DNA of 64,000 nt, taken from Pseudomonadota bacterium. Lineage in GTDB: Bacteria; Desulfobacterota; Desulfobulbia; Desulfobulbales; Desulfurivibrionaceae. Positions 17,489 through 28,222 of the stretch are shown one piece after another; the first letter of the stretch is position 1; each line of letters starts with the position of its first letter. The stretch spans positions 1 through 64,000 of the forward strand of contig JAHJRQ010000022.1 in NCBI GenBank assembly GCA_018830485.1, in the 5' to 3' direction. The position numbers were made by a program, and so were the translations under genes. The notes below the pieces were generated by a model that was given only the letters and a program-made list of their open reading frames with translations, was not told where the DNA came from and ran no database searches.

Positions 17489-17558
17489 CGTGGCGCGGTT
17501 CTGAAGCAAACTGCGATAAAGGGGTGTTTATCCACTAACCACACGAGGAGGGACAACC

Positions 17559-18128
17559 ATGACGACAGAAATTAAATGGCGAACCGAAATGGACGATGCC
17601 CTGTGTCTGGGGCAGAAGGCGGGCAAGCCGATTCTGCTCGATTTTTTCAACCACAACTGAATTGGCTGTCAACAGATGGATACAGTTACGTATCCCGAAA
17701 GCAAGGTGGTTCGCTTCATCGAGGAAAATTTCATCCCGCTCCGCGTTCCGTCTGACAGCAAGCCCCATGCGGAGAAGTTCAACGTCAAGTGGACCCCCAC
17801 CCTGATAACCTTGAGCCCGGAAGCCCAGGAACATCACCGGACCGTGGGGTTTCTCGGGCCCGAGGAGTTGATTTCCTCGCTCCTGTTGGGACTCGGCAAA
17901 TATCATTACGAAAATGACCGTTTCGACGAAGCCTTGGCCCGCCTTGCGCAACTGGTTGACGGGTATGGGCAAAGCGGCAGCGCGCCCGAGGCCATCTTCC
18001 TGGTCGGCGTCTGCAGCTACAAGCGGTCGCACGATCCCAAGCCGCTGAAGGCGGCCTATGAAAAATTGAGCGCTCTTTTCCCCGACAGCGAATGGACCAA
18101 GCGCGCCTATCCCTATCGGCTCCTCTGA
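17559..18128 (+). CDS. Thioredoxin-like selenoprotein (UxxC motif, in-frame TGA as Sec)
   Basis: 189 residues if the TGA at 17658-17660 is read as selenocysteine (residue 34). The start has GAGGAGGG 8 nt upstream. The first 33 codons (ending GKPILLDFFNHN) and the frame after the TGA (IGCQQMDTVTYPESKVV) join into one thioredoxin fold: the TGA falls exactly on the first active-site position, giving U-I-G-C in place of C-x-x-C. The cis-Pro loop follows as FNVKWTPTLITL. The last 70 residues (HYENDRFDEALARLAQLVDGYG) look like a TPR repeat. A thioredoxin-reductase-like gene follows. Conventional gene finders would call only 17676-18128. The alternative is a nonsense mutation, which is less likely at this precise site. 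Confidence 0.85.
17658..17687 (+). promoter_or_regulatory. Sec TGA codon with possible short SECIS hairpin
   Basis: Directly after the TGA, 17664-17669 (GGCTGT) can pair with 17682-17687 (ACAGTT), four Watson-Crick and two G-U pairs, around a 12-nt loop. Bacterial SECIS elements are hairpins in this position, but they vary and usually have a specific apical G; this one is weak and not decisive. Confidence 0.3.
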
Positions 18129-18236: not shown

Positions 18237-19127
18237 ATGCAAGAAAACAGCTACGACTGCATCATCATCGGGGCAGGGCCTGGGGGTTTGCAAGCCGCCA
18301 TCCATCTTGCCCGCTATAACCGGAAGGTCATCCTCCTCGATCACGGCGGCGGCAGGACACGCCATGCCCTGCACATCGAGAACTATCTCGGCCTTGATCT
18401 CACCTCCGGGAAAGAACTTGTTGACACCGGCATCAGGCAGATTACATCCTTCGGCGCCGAGTTCAGACGCGAGGATGTTGCCTCGGTTCGGGTCGAGAAC
18501 GAGTTTGTTGTGACCACGGAAAAGGGGCGGTACCAGGCGCCCTATGCCATTGTTTCCGCCGGCGTTGTCGAGCATCCGCCGAAAATCAAGGGGATGAACC
18601 GGTTTTTCAGCCGGACGGTTTTTACCTGCGTTGACTGCGACGGCTACCGCACCACCGGCAAGAAGCTCGTCATTCTCGGCGATTCCCTCGAAGCCCTGCG
18701 CCTCGCCTTTGCCATGCGCCAGATGTTCACCCCGGATATCATGCTCATCCTGCCGGACGGCGTTCTGCCTGAAGATCATGCCGATTTGCTGGCCGAGGAG
18801 GGAATTGGTTTCCTGGCCGGGACCCCGCAGGAATTTCTTGGCGAGACAATGTTGCGCGGCCTGAGGCTGACGGACGGGCAGGAGATTGCCTGCCAGGCGG
18901 TCATGCTCAGTTATGAGTACACCGTGAACGATTCCTGTCTGGCCGGGCTTGCCCTTGCGCGGGAAGGCAACGGCCGCGAGCTTGCAACCGACCCTGCCTG
19001 CGAAACCTCTGTGAAAAACCTCTTTGCCCTGGGCGCCCTCAAGGCGGGCAAGGCCCAGGCCATTATTGCCGCCGGCCAGGGAGCCATGGTGGGCATCGAG
19101 ATCAACCGCCGGCTGCTGAATCTCTGA
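18237..19127 (+). CDS. Thioredoxin-reductase-like FAD/NAD(P) oxidoreductase
   Basis: 296 aa from the ATG at 18237; a GGGGGAGGG lies about 14 nt upstream. Two-dinucleotide-binding-domain flavoprotein: N-terminal FAD motif CIIIGAGPGGLQAA, the redox pair FTCVDCDGY placed as the CxxC of thioredoxin reductases, a partial second nucleotide site (LVILGDSLEALRLA, with GxxxE rather than a clean GxGxxA), and the C-terminal LFALGAL...GQGAMVGIEI. It likely reduces a disulfide or selenylsulfide partner, and the selenoprotein 108 nt upstream is the obvious candidate. The nicotinamide specificity, or use of another donor such as ferredoxin, cannot be told. Confidence 0.8.
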   Translation: MQENSYDCIIIGAGPGGLQAAIHLARYNRKVILLDHGGGRTRHALHIENYLGLDLTSGKELVDTGIRQITSFGAEFRREDVASVRVENEFVVTTEKGRYQAPYAIVSAGVVEHPPKIKGMNRFFSRTVFTCVDCDGYRTTGKKLVILGDSLEALRLAFAMRQMFTPDIMLILPDGVLPEDHADLLAEEGIGFLAGTPQEFLGETMLRGLRLTDGQEIACQAVMLSYEYTVNDSCLAGLALAREGNGRELATDPACETSVKNLFALGALKAGKAQAIIAAGQGAMVGIEINRRLLNL

Positions 19128-19168: not shown

Positions 19169-19465
19169 ATGAAACGTCAGGTTGAAATGGAAGAAACCAT
19201 GCTGCGTGCGCACCGGGAGTTCCTGGAGCATCTTGAGAAATCCCTTGCTCTGGTGGCGAAGGATATAGATGAGGCCAAGGAGATGATGCATATCTGCACC
19301 GATGAGTGGTGTCTGGCCACCGAGGGCGTGCTTGACGAGCTGGCCAAGGTCATCTTTGCGGTCAGCGAGCCGCGCTGGCTTTCCACGGAAGACTCGAAAA
19401 AGATCAGCGAGTTGCGCCATCGCATCCACGATCTGTACGCCCGCTACAAAGCAGTCAAAAAATAA
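19169..19465 (+). CDS. Small helical hypothetical protein
   Basis: 98 aa with AGGAGG at 19157 as ribosome-binding site. Predicted almost entirely helical (MLRAHREFLEHLEKSLALVAKDIDEA, then DSKKISELRHRIHDLYARYKAVKK) with two cysteines (ICTDEWC). No signal or membrane segment. No family recognised. It lies between the flavoprotein and the oxoacid oxidoreductase genes, 17 nt before the latter, and may be cotranscribed with them. Confidence 0.65.
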   Translation: MKRQVEMEETMLRAHREFLEHLEKSLALVAKDIDEAKEMMHICTDEWCLATEGVLDELAKVIFAVSEPRWLSTEDSKKISELRHRIHDLYARYKAVKK

Positions 19466-19482: not shown

Positions 19483-21183
19483 ATGTCACTGGACATTCAT
19501 CTGCTTATTGGCGGCGAGGCCGGCCAGGGGTTGGTGACCATAGGCCAGTTGCTCAGCAAGGCCCTGGTCCGGGCTGGGTATGAGGTCTTTGTCAGCCAGA
19601 GTTATCATTCGAGAATTCGCGGCGGGCACAACACCTTTGCCATCCGTTTGGGTGCGGGGCCATTTTTTGCGCCCCGCGTGTCCATTGACATCCTGGTGGC
19701 GCTCAACGCCGAAACCGTGGCGCTGCATCGGGGGCAATTGACCGGCCGGGCGCTGCTCATTGCCGATGCCTCCTTTGCCCCCGACCTGCCGGGGGTCATT
19801 GCGGTGCCCTTTGCCGAGCTTGGCCCGGAGCAGCTTTGGAACACGGCCGCCCTCGCCCTGCTCGGCAATATCCTGGATCTTCCCTCCGAGGCTCTGCATC
19901 AGGCGGTGGAGGCGATGCTCGGTAAAAAACATCCGGAAGCCCTGGCTGAAAACAGGGAGATTATGGAGAAAAGCCGGGAGTGGGCCGCGGCCCATGTGCC
20001 GGAGCATGGCTTTGCCCTGACCGGCGGAGTCTCTGCTGCGGCGGATCGCCTTTTGCTGAACGGCAACGAGGCCATCGCCCTGGGCGCTCTGGCCGGCGGC
20101 CTTAAGTTTTGCGCTTTTTATCCCATGACCCCCGCCACCTCCATTGTCCTTGAGCTAATCACCCATGCCGAGGTGATGGGCTGCGTGATCGAGCAGGCCG
20201 AGGACGAAATCGCCGCGATCAACATGGCCATCGGCGCTGCTTTTGCCGGAGCGGTCAGCATGGTGGCCACCTCGGGCGGCGGCTTTGCCCTGATGGCCGA
20301 GGGGGTGAGCCTGGCGGCCATGACCGAAACGCCGGTGCTCATCGCGGTGGCTCAACGGCCAGGTCCGGCCACGGGCATGCCCACCCGCACCGAACAGGCG
20401 GATCTGGAATTCGTGCTCCATGCGGGGCATGGCGAATTTCCCAGGGCAATCTTTGCCCCGGGCAGCATCGAAGCCTGCTTTGCTTTGACCCAAAAGGCCT
20501 TGGTCATGGCCGAGCGGGCCCAGTCGCCGGTTTTTCTTCTCACCGATCAGTTTCTGGCCGATTCGTCCCGGCCGGTCGCGCCCTTTGACCTGGCGGCCAT
20601 CGTTCCGGTCGCAACGGGGGGTGAGACGGCGTTGGCGTCGACCCCTTACCAGCGCTACCGGCTCACGGAAAATGGCCTTTCGCCCCGGTTGCTGCCAGGG
20701 TTTTCGCCGCAGTTGGTGGTGGCGGACAGCGACGAGCATGACGAAGAGGGGCATATCAGCGAAGACCACGGGGTACGCATCGCCATGGTGGAAAAACGGC
20801 TCCGCAAATGTGAGCTGCTCAAGCAGGAGGCCATCGCCCCCGAGCTTAGCGGGGAAAAGGGCGCGGACCTTCTTTTCGTCTGCTGGGGCTCAAGCCTCGG
20901 GCCGGTGCAGGAGGCAGCCGATGTTTTGCGCGGGCAGGGGAGGAATGTCGCCAGCCTGCATTTCTCCCAGGTGTGGCCCCTGGTTCCTGACCAGTTTCTC
21001 GACATCCTTCAGGGGGCCGGCAAGATCGTGTGCGTGGAGGGCAATGCCACCGGCCAATTTGCCCGGCTCATCCAACGGGAGACAGGTTTTGCCATCCCTG
21101 AAAGGATAGCGCGTTACGACGGACTGCCCTTTACCGCCCGCTATATTGTGGAACGCCTTGCAGCCATGGAGGAACGCGCATGA
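19483..21183 (+). CDS. korA: 2-oxoacid:ferredoxin oxidoreductase, fused gamma-alpha subunit (KorA-like)
   Basis: 566 aa. The N-terminal 190 residues are the gamma domain (IHLLIGGEAGQGLVTIGQLL, SYHSRIRGGHNTF); residues from about 200 are the alpha (pyrimidine-binding) domain with NEAIALGALAGGLKFCAFYPMTPAT and EQAEDEIAAINMAIGAAFAGA, and a C-terminal transketolase-like domain. The gamma-alpha fusion matches KorA of two-subunit 2-oxoglutarate synthases. With the beta subunit it decarboxylates a 2-oxoacid to acyl-CoA, reducing ferredoxin, or runs in reverse. Substrate (2-oxoglutarate versus another oxoacid) is inferred from the fusion architecture only. It overlaps the beta gene by ATGA. Confidence 0.88.
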   Translation: MSLDIHLLIGGEAGQGLVTIGQLLSKALVRAGYEVFVSQSYHSRIRGGHNTFAIRLGAGPFFAPRVSIDILVALNAETVALHRGQLTGRALLIADASFAPDLPGVIAVPFAELGPEQLWNTAALALLGNILDLPSEALHQAVEAMLGKKHPEALAENREIMEKSREWAAAHVPEHGFALTGGVSAAADRLLLNGNEAIALGALAGGLKFCAFYPMTPATSIVLELITHAEVMGCVIEQAEDEIAAINMAIGAAFAGAVSMVATSGGGFALMAEGVSLAAMTETPVLIAVAQRPGPATGMPTRTEQADLEFVLHAGHGEFPRAIFAPGSIEACFALTQKALVMAERAQSPVFLLTDQFLADSSRPVAPFDLAAIVPVATGGETALASTPYQRYRLTENGLSPRLLPGFSPQLVVADSDEHDEEGHISEDHGVRIAMVEKRLRKCELLKQEAIAPELSGEKGADLLFVCWGSSLGPVQEAADVLRGQGRNVASLHFSQVWPLVPDQFLDILQGAGKIVCVEGNATGQFARLIQRETGFAIPERIARYDGLPFTARYIVERLAAMEERA

Positions 21184-22031
21184 CATCCATTGAGGAATAC
21201 GGAAAATACGAAACAGCCTGGTGCCCCGGCTGCGGCAATTTCGGGATTCTCAACTCCCTGAAGCACGCCCTGGTCGCCTGCGCACTTTCTCCCCATCAGG
21301 TGCTGCTGGTTTCCGGCATCGGCCAGGCGGCCAAGGCTCCGCATTATCTCAAGGCCAATGTTTTTAACGGTCTGCACGGCCGCAGCCTGCCGGTGGCCAT
21401 CGGGGCAAAGCTCGCCAACCCCGAACTCACCGTGATCGCCGAAAGCGGTGACGGCTGCATGTACGGGGAGGGCGGCAACCATTTCCTCGCCGCCCTGCGC
21501 CGCAATCTCGACCTCACCATCCTGGCGCACGACAACAGGGTGTACGGTCTTACCAAGGGGCAGGCCAGCCCCACCTCGGAGCAGGGATTCGTGACCAAGG
21601 CCCAGCCCCATGGCGCTTTTGCCCCGCCCTTCAACCCGGTGGCCGTGGCGGTGACCATGGGCGCTTCCTTTGTGGCCCGCGGCTATGCCGGCTTGCCGGA
21701 GCATCTCGCCGACCTGATCGCCCAGGCCATCAAGCATCGGGGCACCTCCCTGGTGGATATCCTGCAGCCCTGCGTCTCGTTCAACAAGGTCAACACCTAT
21801 CAATGGTACAAGGAACATTGCTATGAGCTTGGCGAGGACCATGATCCCACCGATCATGGACAGGCTCTGCGCATTGCCCTGGAATTCGGGGAGCGCATCC
21901 CGCTCGGGGTGATTCATAAGATGGAAAAGCCGCTTTTCGAGGAGCAGTTCGCGGTTCTTAAAAACGGGCCGCTCGCACGGCAGGAGGTTTCCCGGGAGGG
22001 GCTGCAGCAGATAATGCAGGAGTATCTGTAA
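21180..22031 (+). CDS. korB: 2-oxoacid:ferredoxin oxidoreductase beta subunit (KorB-like)
   Basis: 283 aa. Thiamine-diphosphate-binding beta subunit: AWCPGCGNFGILNSL with the Cys pair, AESGDGCMYGEGGNHFLAALRRN as the TPP/Mg site, and DNRVYGLTKGQASPTS, all typical of KorB/PorB. The N-terminal cysteines plus C-terminal PCVSFNKVNTY supply ligands for one [4Fe-4S] cluster. No separate ferredoxin (delta) subunit is adjacent, consistent with the two-subunit form. Translationally coupled to the alpha-gamma gene. Confidence 0.9.
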   Translation: MTSIEEYGKYETAWCPGCGNFGILNSLKHALVACALSPHQVLLVSGIGQAAKAPHYLKANVFNGLHGRSLPVAIGAKLANPELTVIAESGDGCMYGEGGNHFLAALRRNLDLTILAHDNRVYGLTKGQASPTSEQGFVTKAQPHGAFAPPFNPVAVAVTMGASFVARGYAGLPEHLADLIAQAIKHRGTSLVDILQPCVSFNKVNTYQWYKEHCYELGEDHDPTDHGQALRIALEFGERIPLGVIHKMEKPLFEEQFAVLKNGPLARQEVSREGLQQIMQEYL

Positions 22032-28144: not shown

Positions 28145-28222
28145 TCTTCGGTAGCCCGGCTACCTCAGTGAGGCCCGTGACTTTGCGTCCCCAGGTCGCC
28201 CCAGGTTTGCCTTTGTCGGAAT
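28145..28222 (-). promoter_or_regulatory. Cyclic di-GMP-I (GEMM) riboswitch aptamer
   Basis: On the minus strand the order is AGGCAAACCTGG, GGGGACGCAAAGTCACGGGCCT, then GAGGTAGCCGGGCTACCGA (written here in pieces). GGGACGCAAAG and the GGTAGCnGGGnTACCGA tetraloop-receptor/P3 stem are the hallmarks of class I c-di-GMP riboswitches. It is followed by a terminator and, about 200 nt further on, the exported-protein gene at 27894. The rest of the 535-nt gap between 27895 and 28429 holds no gene that I can support. Confidence 0.88.

Follow-up and report, generated by a model that had tools for sequence, protein, structure and literature searches.

The chaperedoxin CnoX (YbbN) is defined by the fusion of a thioredoxin domain to a C-terminal tetratricopeptide repeat (TPR) domain, and in the Escherichia coli protein the TPR domain comprises two subdomains of five helices each [PMC8129009, in the parts covered]. 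Selenocysteine (Sec) is a feature of another thioredoxin-fold family, which has been listed as 'thiol:disulfide interchange protein' since 2004. In the May 2026 inventory of prokaryotic selenoproteins this family has PF13098 and the motif UxxC (WP_011366075.1), and the parts covered of that inventory name no selenoprotein in which a thioredoxin domain is joined to TPRs [PMC13188914]. The family has been recorded in Geobacter and Syntrophus [PMC1794560], and 'thiol disulfide interchange protein', equated with Trx-like 2 (cd02953), is represented in ocean data by 22 Sec and 2,098 Cys sequences [PMC2398784], both sources again being covered in part. A limited literature search found no paper on a thioredoxin/tetratricopeptide selenoprotein of Desulfobulb- bacteria, and an earlier description may exist in print.

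The window, a stretch of 64,000 nucleotides (positions 1 to 64,000, forward strand, of contig JAHJRQ010000022.1, assembly GCA_018830485.1), contains a gene at 17559-18128 that almost certainly encodes a selenoprotein with Sec34 and a DsbD-gamma-like thioredoxin fold, as judged from its sequence and from a predicted structure. The features of the region are as follows.

17546-17551, + strand: Shine-Dalgarno sequence AGGAGG, from the window sequence
17559-18128, + strand: predicted selenoprotein gene, with a thioredoxin-like domain at about residues 1-107 and a TPR-like helical tail at about residues 108-189, from homologues and predicted structure
17658-17660, + strand: TGA read as selenocysteine, Sec34 of UIGC, from the TGAs of homologues and from Cys at this place in 9 of 11 non-TGA loci
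17678-17695, + strand: SECIS-type hairpin, with arms at 17678-17683 and 17690-17695 and a loop at 17684-17689 (AGTTAC), from covariation and recoding
17796-17798, + strand: codon for Pro80 in W-T-P, where the active-site cis-proline of a thioredoxin is expected, from residue conservation
18237-19127, + strand: thioredoxin-reductase-fold flavoprotein with CVDC and without the NADPH motif, from sequence, its association being local to the genus and close kin
19169-19465, + strand: gene for a 98-aa protein without a Pfam or NCBIfam match, which follows in most same-genus loci, from the ORF list and the loci

With the internal TGA read as Sec, 17559-18128 is one open reading frame of 189 aa, from an ATG at 17559 to a TGA stop at 18126-18128. 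The internal TGA (17658-17660) is codon 34 and yields the motif UIGC in the context ...LLDFFNHN-U-IGC-QQMDTVTYP.... The preliminary description had placed this TGA at the first redox position, with the frame open on either side, and had predicted that gene callers would annotate a truncated protein of 150 aa; a TGA is present at the same column in all 66 genes read, and the mechanical ORF list indeed shows the downstream piece alone (17676-18128, 150 aa). The ribosome-binding site claimed for the upstream half exists, at 17546-17551 rather than at 17544 as had been written, and, as had also been said, no Shine-Dalgarno sequence is evident in the window in front of the ATG at 17676 that starts the downstream half. 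(By eye, purine-rich stretches precede the start in many homologues too.) In codons 1-33, pN is lower than pS in 16 of 16 comparisons with the window's gene, each of which covers these 33 codons; within the genus (n=10) pN is 0.064-0.141 and pS 0.23-0.44, and the weakest contrast, that with L028, is 0.358 versus 0.44. Consequently, the stretch before the TGA evolves as coding sequence. A motif scan for other in-frame TGAs in the window gave 44 loose candidates, and only the TGA at 17658 resembles, by eye, a conserved redox site.

Homologues were sought in 97 relatives and in 395 genomes of the phylum, two sets that overlap. Matches at E 1e-3 or better are present in 52 of the 97 relatives and matches below 1e-30 in 39, and each of these 39 holds exactly one in-frame TGA (one of them, in G030, spans residues 3-103 only). 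The remaining matched relatives have weak matches to thioredoxin-fold or TPR-like stretches, a split copy in G024 excepted; relatives with names include Desulfurivibrio sp., Desulfobulbaceae and other Desulfobulbales-type MAGs. Within the phylum, 107 of 395 genomes match at E 1e-12 and 75 of 395 carry the TGA form below 1e-30; a long match is present in 84, of which 75 have the TGA form and nine are without the TGA. With both sets combined, 109 genomes hold a gene with exactly one in-frame TGA. Across the 66 genes read, Sec falls in a single alignment column, at residue 30-37 of each protein. C37, Q39, M40, D41, W78, T79 and P80 are invariant in an alignment of 24 rows, as are T79 and P80 in one of 60 rows. 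When plasmids were screened with the protein, the outcome was two matches, both weak and partial.

In G024, a genome of the window's family, the copy at locus L111 (C12, approximately 68283-68650) has decayed: its frame shifts near codon 40 and the C-terminus is gone, but the TGA and the hairpin are still in place; the other four genomes of its genus among the 97 relatives have no match. In addition, a contig filed under Draconibacterium, of the Bacteroidota (L048, DYSN01000186.1), encodes a protein 81% identical to that of the window, which the tree places among those of the window's genus; this contig is probably misbinned.

Bacterial SECIS (bSECIS) elements have an apical loop 16-37 nt after the UGA and a G among the first two loop bases. 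The hairpin at 17678-17695 has both properties, its loop starting 23 nt past the TGA with a G at the second loop place, which is kept in 66 of 66 genes. (The genes compared are L010-L039, L048, L065-L091 and L103-L110, a subset of the 109 genomes; L040-L047 and L049-L052, mostly repeats of the same contigs, were omitted.) In these genes 54 bases from the TGA on align without a gap, and RNAalifold returns a single helix, columns 21-26 with columns 33-38 (17678-17683 with 17690-17695 in the window), that begins 17 bases past the TGA. Of the cells of this helix 98.2% are paired, compared with 19-63% in slid versions, and double-sided changes are seen in three of the six pairs. On four of five measures none of 500 shuffles comes up to the helix as observed; on the fifth (further pair types) 38 do. 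Conservation of the protein at this place is the obvious objection. With synonymous codons redrawn 2000 times according to the codon usage of the family itself, all six pairs form in 6.2 genes on average and in 15 at most, versus 64 of 66 observed, and 73.6% of cells are paired (maximum 78.5%) versus 98.2%. At these columns the full helix is missing in L106 and L108. A bSECIS prediction after the TGA had been proposed as a check, and the hairpin, with all six pairs in 64 of 66 genes, comes out of it strongly supported. (It should be added that Rfam, run on the window and at a loose threshold on 17600-17800, found no SECIS family, which is no test of the hairpin.)

Within the paired columns Thr44 is encoded by ACG in 60 of 61 genes and Asp41 by GAT in 55 of 56. 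Five genes have Glu41 and Phe45 in place of Asp41 and Tyr45, and since the change of GAT to GAA (four genes) or GAG (one) is matched by a change of TAT to TTT, the pair is kept, with U-A becoming A-U or G-U; L108, with Glu41 and Trp45, has no pair. The five genes occupy two places on a tree of 76 rows with a poorly resolved backbone, four being grouped and L089 lying apart. In this paired Asp/Tyr to Glu/Phe swap an RNA element clearly steers the sequence of a protein. Of the six pairs, 4, 4, 2, 2 and 1 are left in the five of 11 non-TGA loci that were scored.

The preliminary description had made its proposal depend on the presence of sel genes, and in the window's genome (G000; 26 contigs, 2.89 Mb, 97.9% complete) selA, selB, selD and tRNA-Sec are all found: selA at C1:35868-37226 (617 bits, E 1.6e-185), selB at C14:15980-17875 (355 bits, E 4.5e-106), selD at C13:497401-498324 (L062; 380 bits, E 7.2e-114) and tRNA-Sec at C13:585712-585805 (71.1 bits against a gathering score of 47, with the anticodon TCA given by ARAGORN). 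The selD gene itself holds one in-frame TGA, given which SelD of this genome is likely a selenoprotein as well. An in-frame UGA that is conserved in homologues or aligned with Cys, a bSECIS hairpin right after it and a genome with SelA, SelB, SelD and tRNA-Sec are the marks of a bacterial selenoprotein, and the locus has all of them; every sequence-level test made has come out in favour, and the protein is very probably a real selenoprotein.

Two other explanations of the TGA have been weighed. If translation really ended there, or if the TGA came from a sequencing error or from mutation of a pseudogene, the locus would consist of two genes or of one broken gene, a view to which the 150-aa downstream frame in the ORF list and the decayed, frameshifted copy in G024 lend some colour. 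However, one in-frame TGA recurs in 109 genomes, evolution is of the coding type on either side of it, the hairpin is conserved, and the downstream ATG has no evident Shine-Dalgarno sequence ahead of it, so that this explanation is extremely improbable. An equally negligible probability attaches to the idea that the UGA is read as another amino acid such as Trp, or has been reassigned; a frame open on both sides of the UGA would fit this idea too, but the gene's own stop is a TGA, the genome has the Sec apparatus, the residue in 9 of the 11 non-TGA loci is Cys and not Trp, and a hairpin whose loop has the G is conserved in 66 of 66 genes.

A comparison of homologues for Cys or Sec at residue 34 had also been suggested, and it finds Sec and, in a minority, Cys, together with two diverged copies that have neither. 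The long loci without a TGA number 11, in nine phylum genomes; by eye, Cys stands at the Sec place in nine of them and neither residue in L098 and L102. A search for selA covered 80 of the 84 long-match genomes of the phylum, 71 of them with the TGA form and nine without. The gene is matched in 68 of the 71, in 67 of them above the cut-off, the gene of G243 being partial. The three TGA-form genomes without a selA match are MAGs of genus g48 that are 62-79% complete; two of these, G101 and G172, have selB above the cut-off, and G137 has only a fragment that matches positions 528-579 of the selB profile. Of the nine non-TGA genomes, selA is present in five and absent in four, and those four are also without selB above the cut-off. 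The most instructive genome is G373 (98% complete), which has the Cys form, no selA match and no selB above the cut-off; its congener G445 has the TGA form and has kept selB. Loss of the Sec apparatus as the full explanation of the Cys forms is ruled out, because five of the nine non-TGA genomes keep selA; apparatus loss is not the sole route to Cys. In genome family f72 Ser replaces the second Cys in six of the seven Cys copies and two copies have neither residue, a decay of the motif which argues that a redox role is not universal in the family. (The f72 copies with a decayed motif are L094-L102, among them two copies in G308 and G211; a Gly- and Ser-rich extension with a terminal Tyr follows at the C-terminus in seven of these nine.)

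An AlphaFold2 model, built on the 60-row alignment with Sec entered as Cys, has a mean pLDDT of 97.4 and a pTM of 0.92 and consists of a thioredoxin domain to about residue 100 followed by six helices. For the first part, sequence profile and structure alike name DsbD gamma and putative disulfide isomerases; the best structural match is 3f9u (Z 16.0, rmsd 2.2 over 119 residues). The window's protein matches Pfam PF13098 (Thioredoxin_2) best, and all 60 members scanned contain this domain, which together with the pLDDT of the model marks the domain as a thioredoxin fold. The TPR-like C-terminal extension of the preliminary description is borne out as well: the sequence profile names the TPRs of CpoB, YbgF and BamD for the second part, the model has its six helices there, and TPR_6 is found in 39 of 60 members. 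The DsbD gamma and DsbH-like thioredoxins share the fold of the domain, with Z 13.9, rmsd 1.9 over 110 residues and 23% identity for 1uc7 and Z 14.6 and 19% identity for 2ju5. The window's protein is unlike them in having the TPR-like tail and Sec and, by eye, no evident signal peptide or membrane part; as no signal peptide is seen, the protein is probably cytoplasmic. With CnoX/YbbN it shares the defining fusion, in which a single polypeptide carries TPR-like helices behind a thioredoxin domain, but its tail is shorter (189 versus about 284 aa in all), with six helices after residue 100 in place of five per subdomain, its domain is DsbD-gamma-like rather than TrxA-like, and it has Sec where CnoX/YbbN has Ser or Cys. 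YbbN (3qou) is the top Foldseek match (E 1.1e-6); the superposition is poor (TM 0.42, rmsd 11.9 over 200 columns), and the VIA structure list hardly probes residues past 122. Consequently, the likeness to chaperedoxins, for which holdase activity and transfer to GroEL are further marks, is architectural only.

Nine NCBIfam models (June 2026) match the window's protein and none reaches its cut-off, the best being NF045694 with 42.2 versus 805 bits. This model describes TsoB, a rhodanese/DsbD-fusion selenoprotein, and the match is confined to its C-terminal DsbD-gamma-like part (456-567 of 572), the other parts of the profile being unmatched. The listed 'thiol:disulfide interchange protein' resembles the window's protein in its UxxC motif, in a domain of the Thioredoxin_2/DsbD-gamma type and in its deltaproteobacterial-type hosts, as far as the parts of the sources covered go. 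That the protein belongs to this listed family, and is hence already known, is a real possibility, one that we nevertheless hold to be somewhat doubtful. Membership is favoured by PF13098 as best match and as a constant of the 60 members, and by the tables of PMC13188914 and PMC1794560, in which the same motif type occurs in hosts of a related sort. Against it, the covered parts of the sources mention no TPR tail for the listed family, and its Cys homologues are many (22 Sec versus 2,098 Cys for cd02953 in the ocean data of PMC2398784), whereas here the tail is present and the Cys form is uncommon, 75 of 84 phylum genomes with a long match having the TGA form; this comparison is one of descriptions only. 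Put forward tentatively, with about as much to be said against as for it, is the reading that the locus represents an undescribed, phylum-wide and mostly Sec-containing 'chaperedoxin-like' family, in which the tail would bring clients to the Sec site and the hairpin would dictate two amino acids. The deep-Sep paper, in the parts covered, states that its own method is weak for families without Cys homologues. Here Cys forms are scarce and divergent, for which reason programs that depend on Cys homologues might overlook the family. In either case the locus adds to the selenoproteomes of an anaerobic lineage a common protein, present in 75 of 395 phylum genomes sampled, which a plain ORF call truncates.

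The gene downstream, at 18237, had been described as thioredoxin-reductase-like and as forming a small redox pair with the selenoprotein. The fold and CVDC bear out the first claim, and by eye the protein keeps GAGPGG as well; the NADPH motif of the ordinary enzyme is missing. In particular, GxGxxA/G, the mark of an NADPH thioredoxin reductase, is not present by eye in its second Rossmann part, which has LVILGDSLEALRL in its place, and the protein scores 119 bits against TIGR01292, for which the cut-off is 343. Its closest solved relatives by sequence are Gll2934 (5n0j), 4ntd (called thioredoxin reductase) and Slr0600 (5jri). Gll2934 is presumably a cyanobacterial DDOR. DDOR is without the NADPH- and Trx-binding motifs and is described as not interacting with thioredoxins [PMC9025218, in the parts covered]. 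As for the pair, the claim is weak and the association local: the flavoprotein gene lies downstream in 12 of the 14 loci of the window's genus and nearest kin (L010-L023; it is absent in L015 and L019), L048 has a partial match, and none of the 62 other loci (L024-L039 and L065-L110; tblastn, E 1e-5) has it, L078, L080 and L085 having less than 1 kb downstream.

Genes 19483-22031 resemble, by eye, a 2-oxoacid:acceptor oxidoreductase, and a dedicated two-gene redox system can be envisaged in which the selenoprotein has its own reductase in the 18237 flavoprotein, with ferredoxin perhaps supplied by these genes. The adjacency in 12 of 14 loci and the presence of disulfide flavoproteins without the NADPH motif among the closest solved relatives speak for such a system, but the absence of the flavoprotein from the 62 other loci and from two of the 14, and the statement in the covered parts of PMC9025218 that DDOR does not interact with thioredoxins, make it unlikely. 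For the window's genus, the adjacent flavoprotein is a possible candidate electron donor. Among 41 wider loci surveyed, no neighbour is common to most. The largest cluster of neighbours, from nine loci, resembles by eye a loose group of signalling-type domains whose distance from the gene varies. Four loci have a DnaN-like gene nearby and three have 2-oxoacid-oxidoreductase-like genes, and in three others (L127, L136 and L151) flavin disulfide-reductase-like genes occur at up to about 5 kb. Since no neighbour is shared by most loci outside the genus, no pathway is pointed to. (Elsewhere in the window, a c-di-GMP-I-GGC riboswitch scores above the gathering score at 28146-28220 on the - strand.)

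For the Sec-containing protein the following mechanism can be proposed. SelB and Sec-tRNA would recognise the hairpin located right after the UGA and insert Sec at residue 34; both the apparatus and the hairpin are present. In the predicted structure, U-I-G-C opens the first active-site helix of the thioredoxin domain, together with the conserved Thr-Pro loop. The selenolate would most likely attack disulfides, oxidised thiols or persulfides of client proteins, and Cys37 would then resolve the mixed bond. The tail may dock the client or a partner, somewhat as the thioredoxin domain and TPRs do in CnoX/YbbN. Electrons might come from the adjacent flavoprotein in the window's genus, and most relatives would need another donor. 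The protein could thus be a client-docking reductase, a role that is slightly less likely than not.

A probable second family came to light beside the first. Short paralogues with a single thioredoxin domain and no TPR tail, L153 (G420:C28:287-613) and L154 (G437:C16:14302-14625), carry an in-frame TGA in the motif UPHC, and homologues read from G139, G402 and G203 have CPHC, in which Cys takes the position of the TGA. Behind the TGA a GGTC...GACC hairpin can be made out by eye, and the paralogues are probably a second selenoprotein family.
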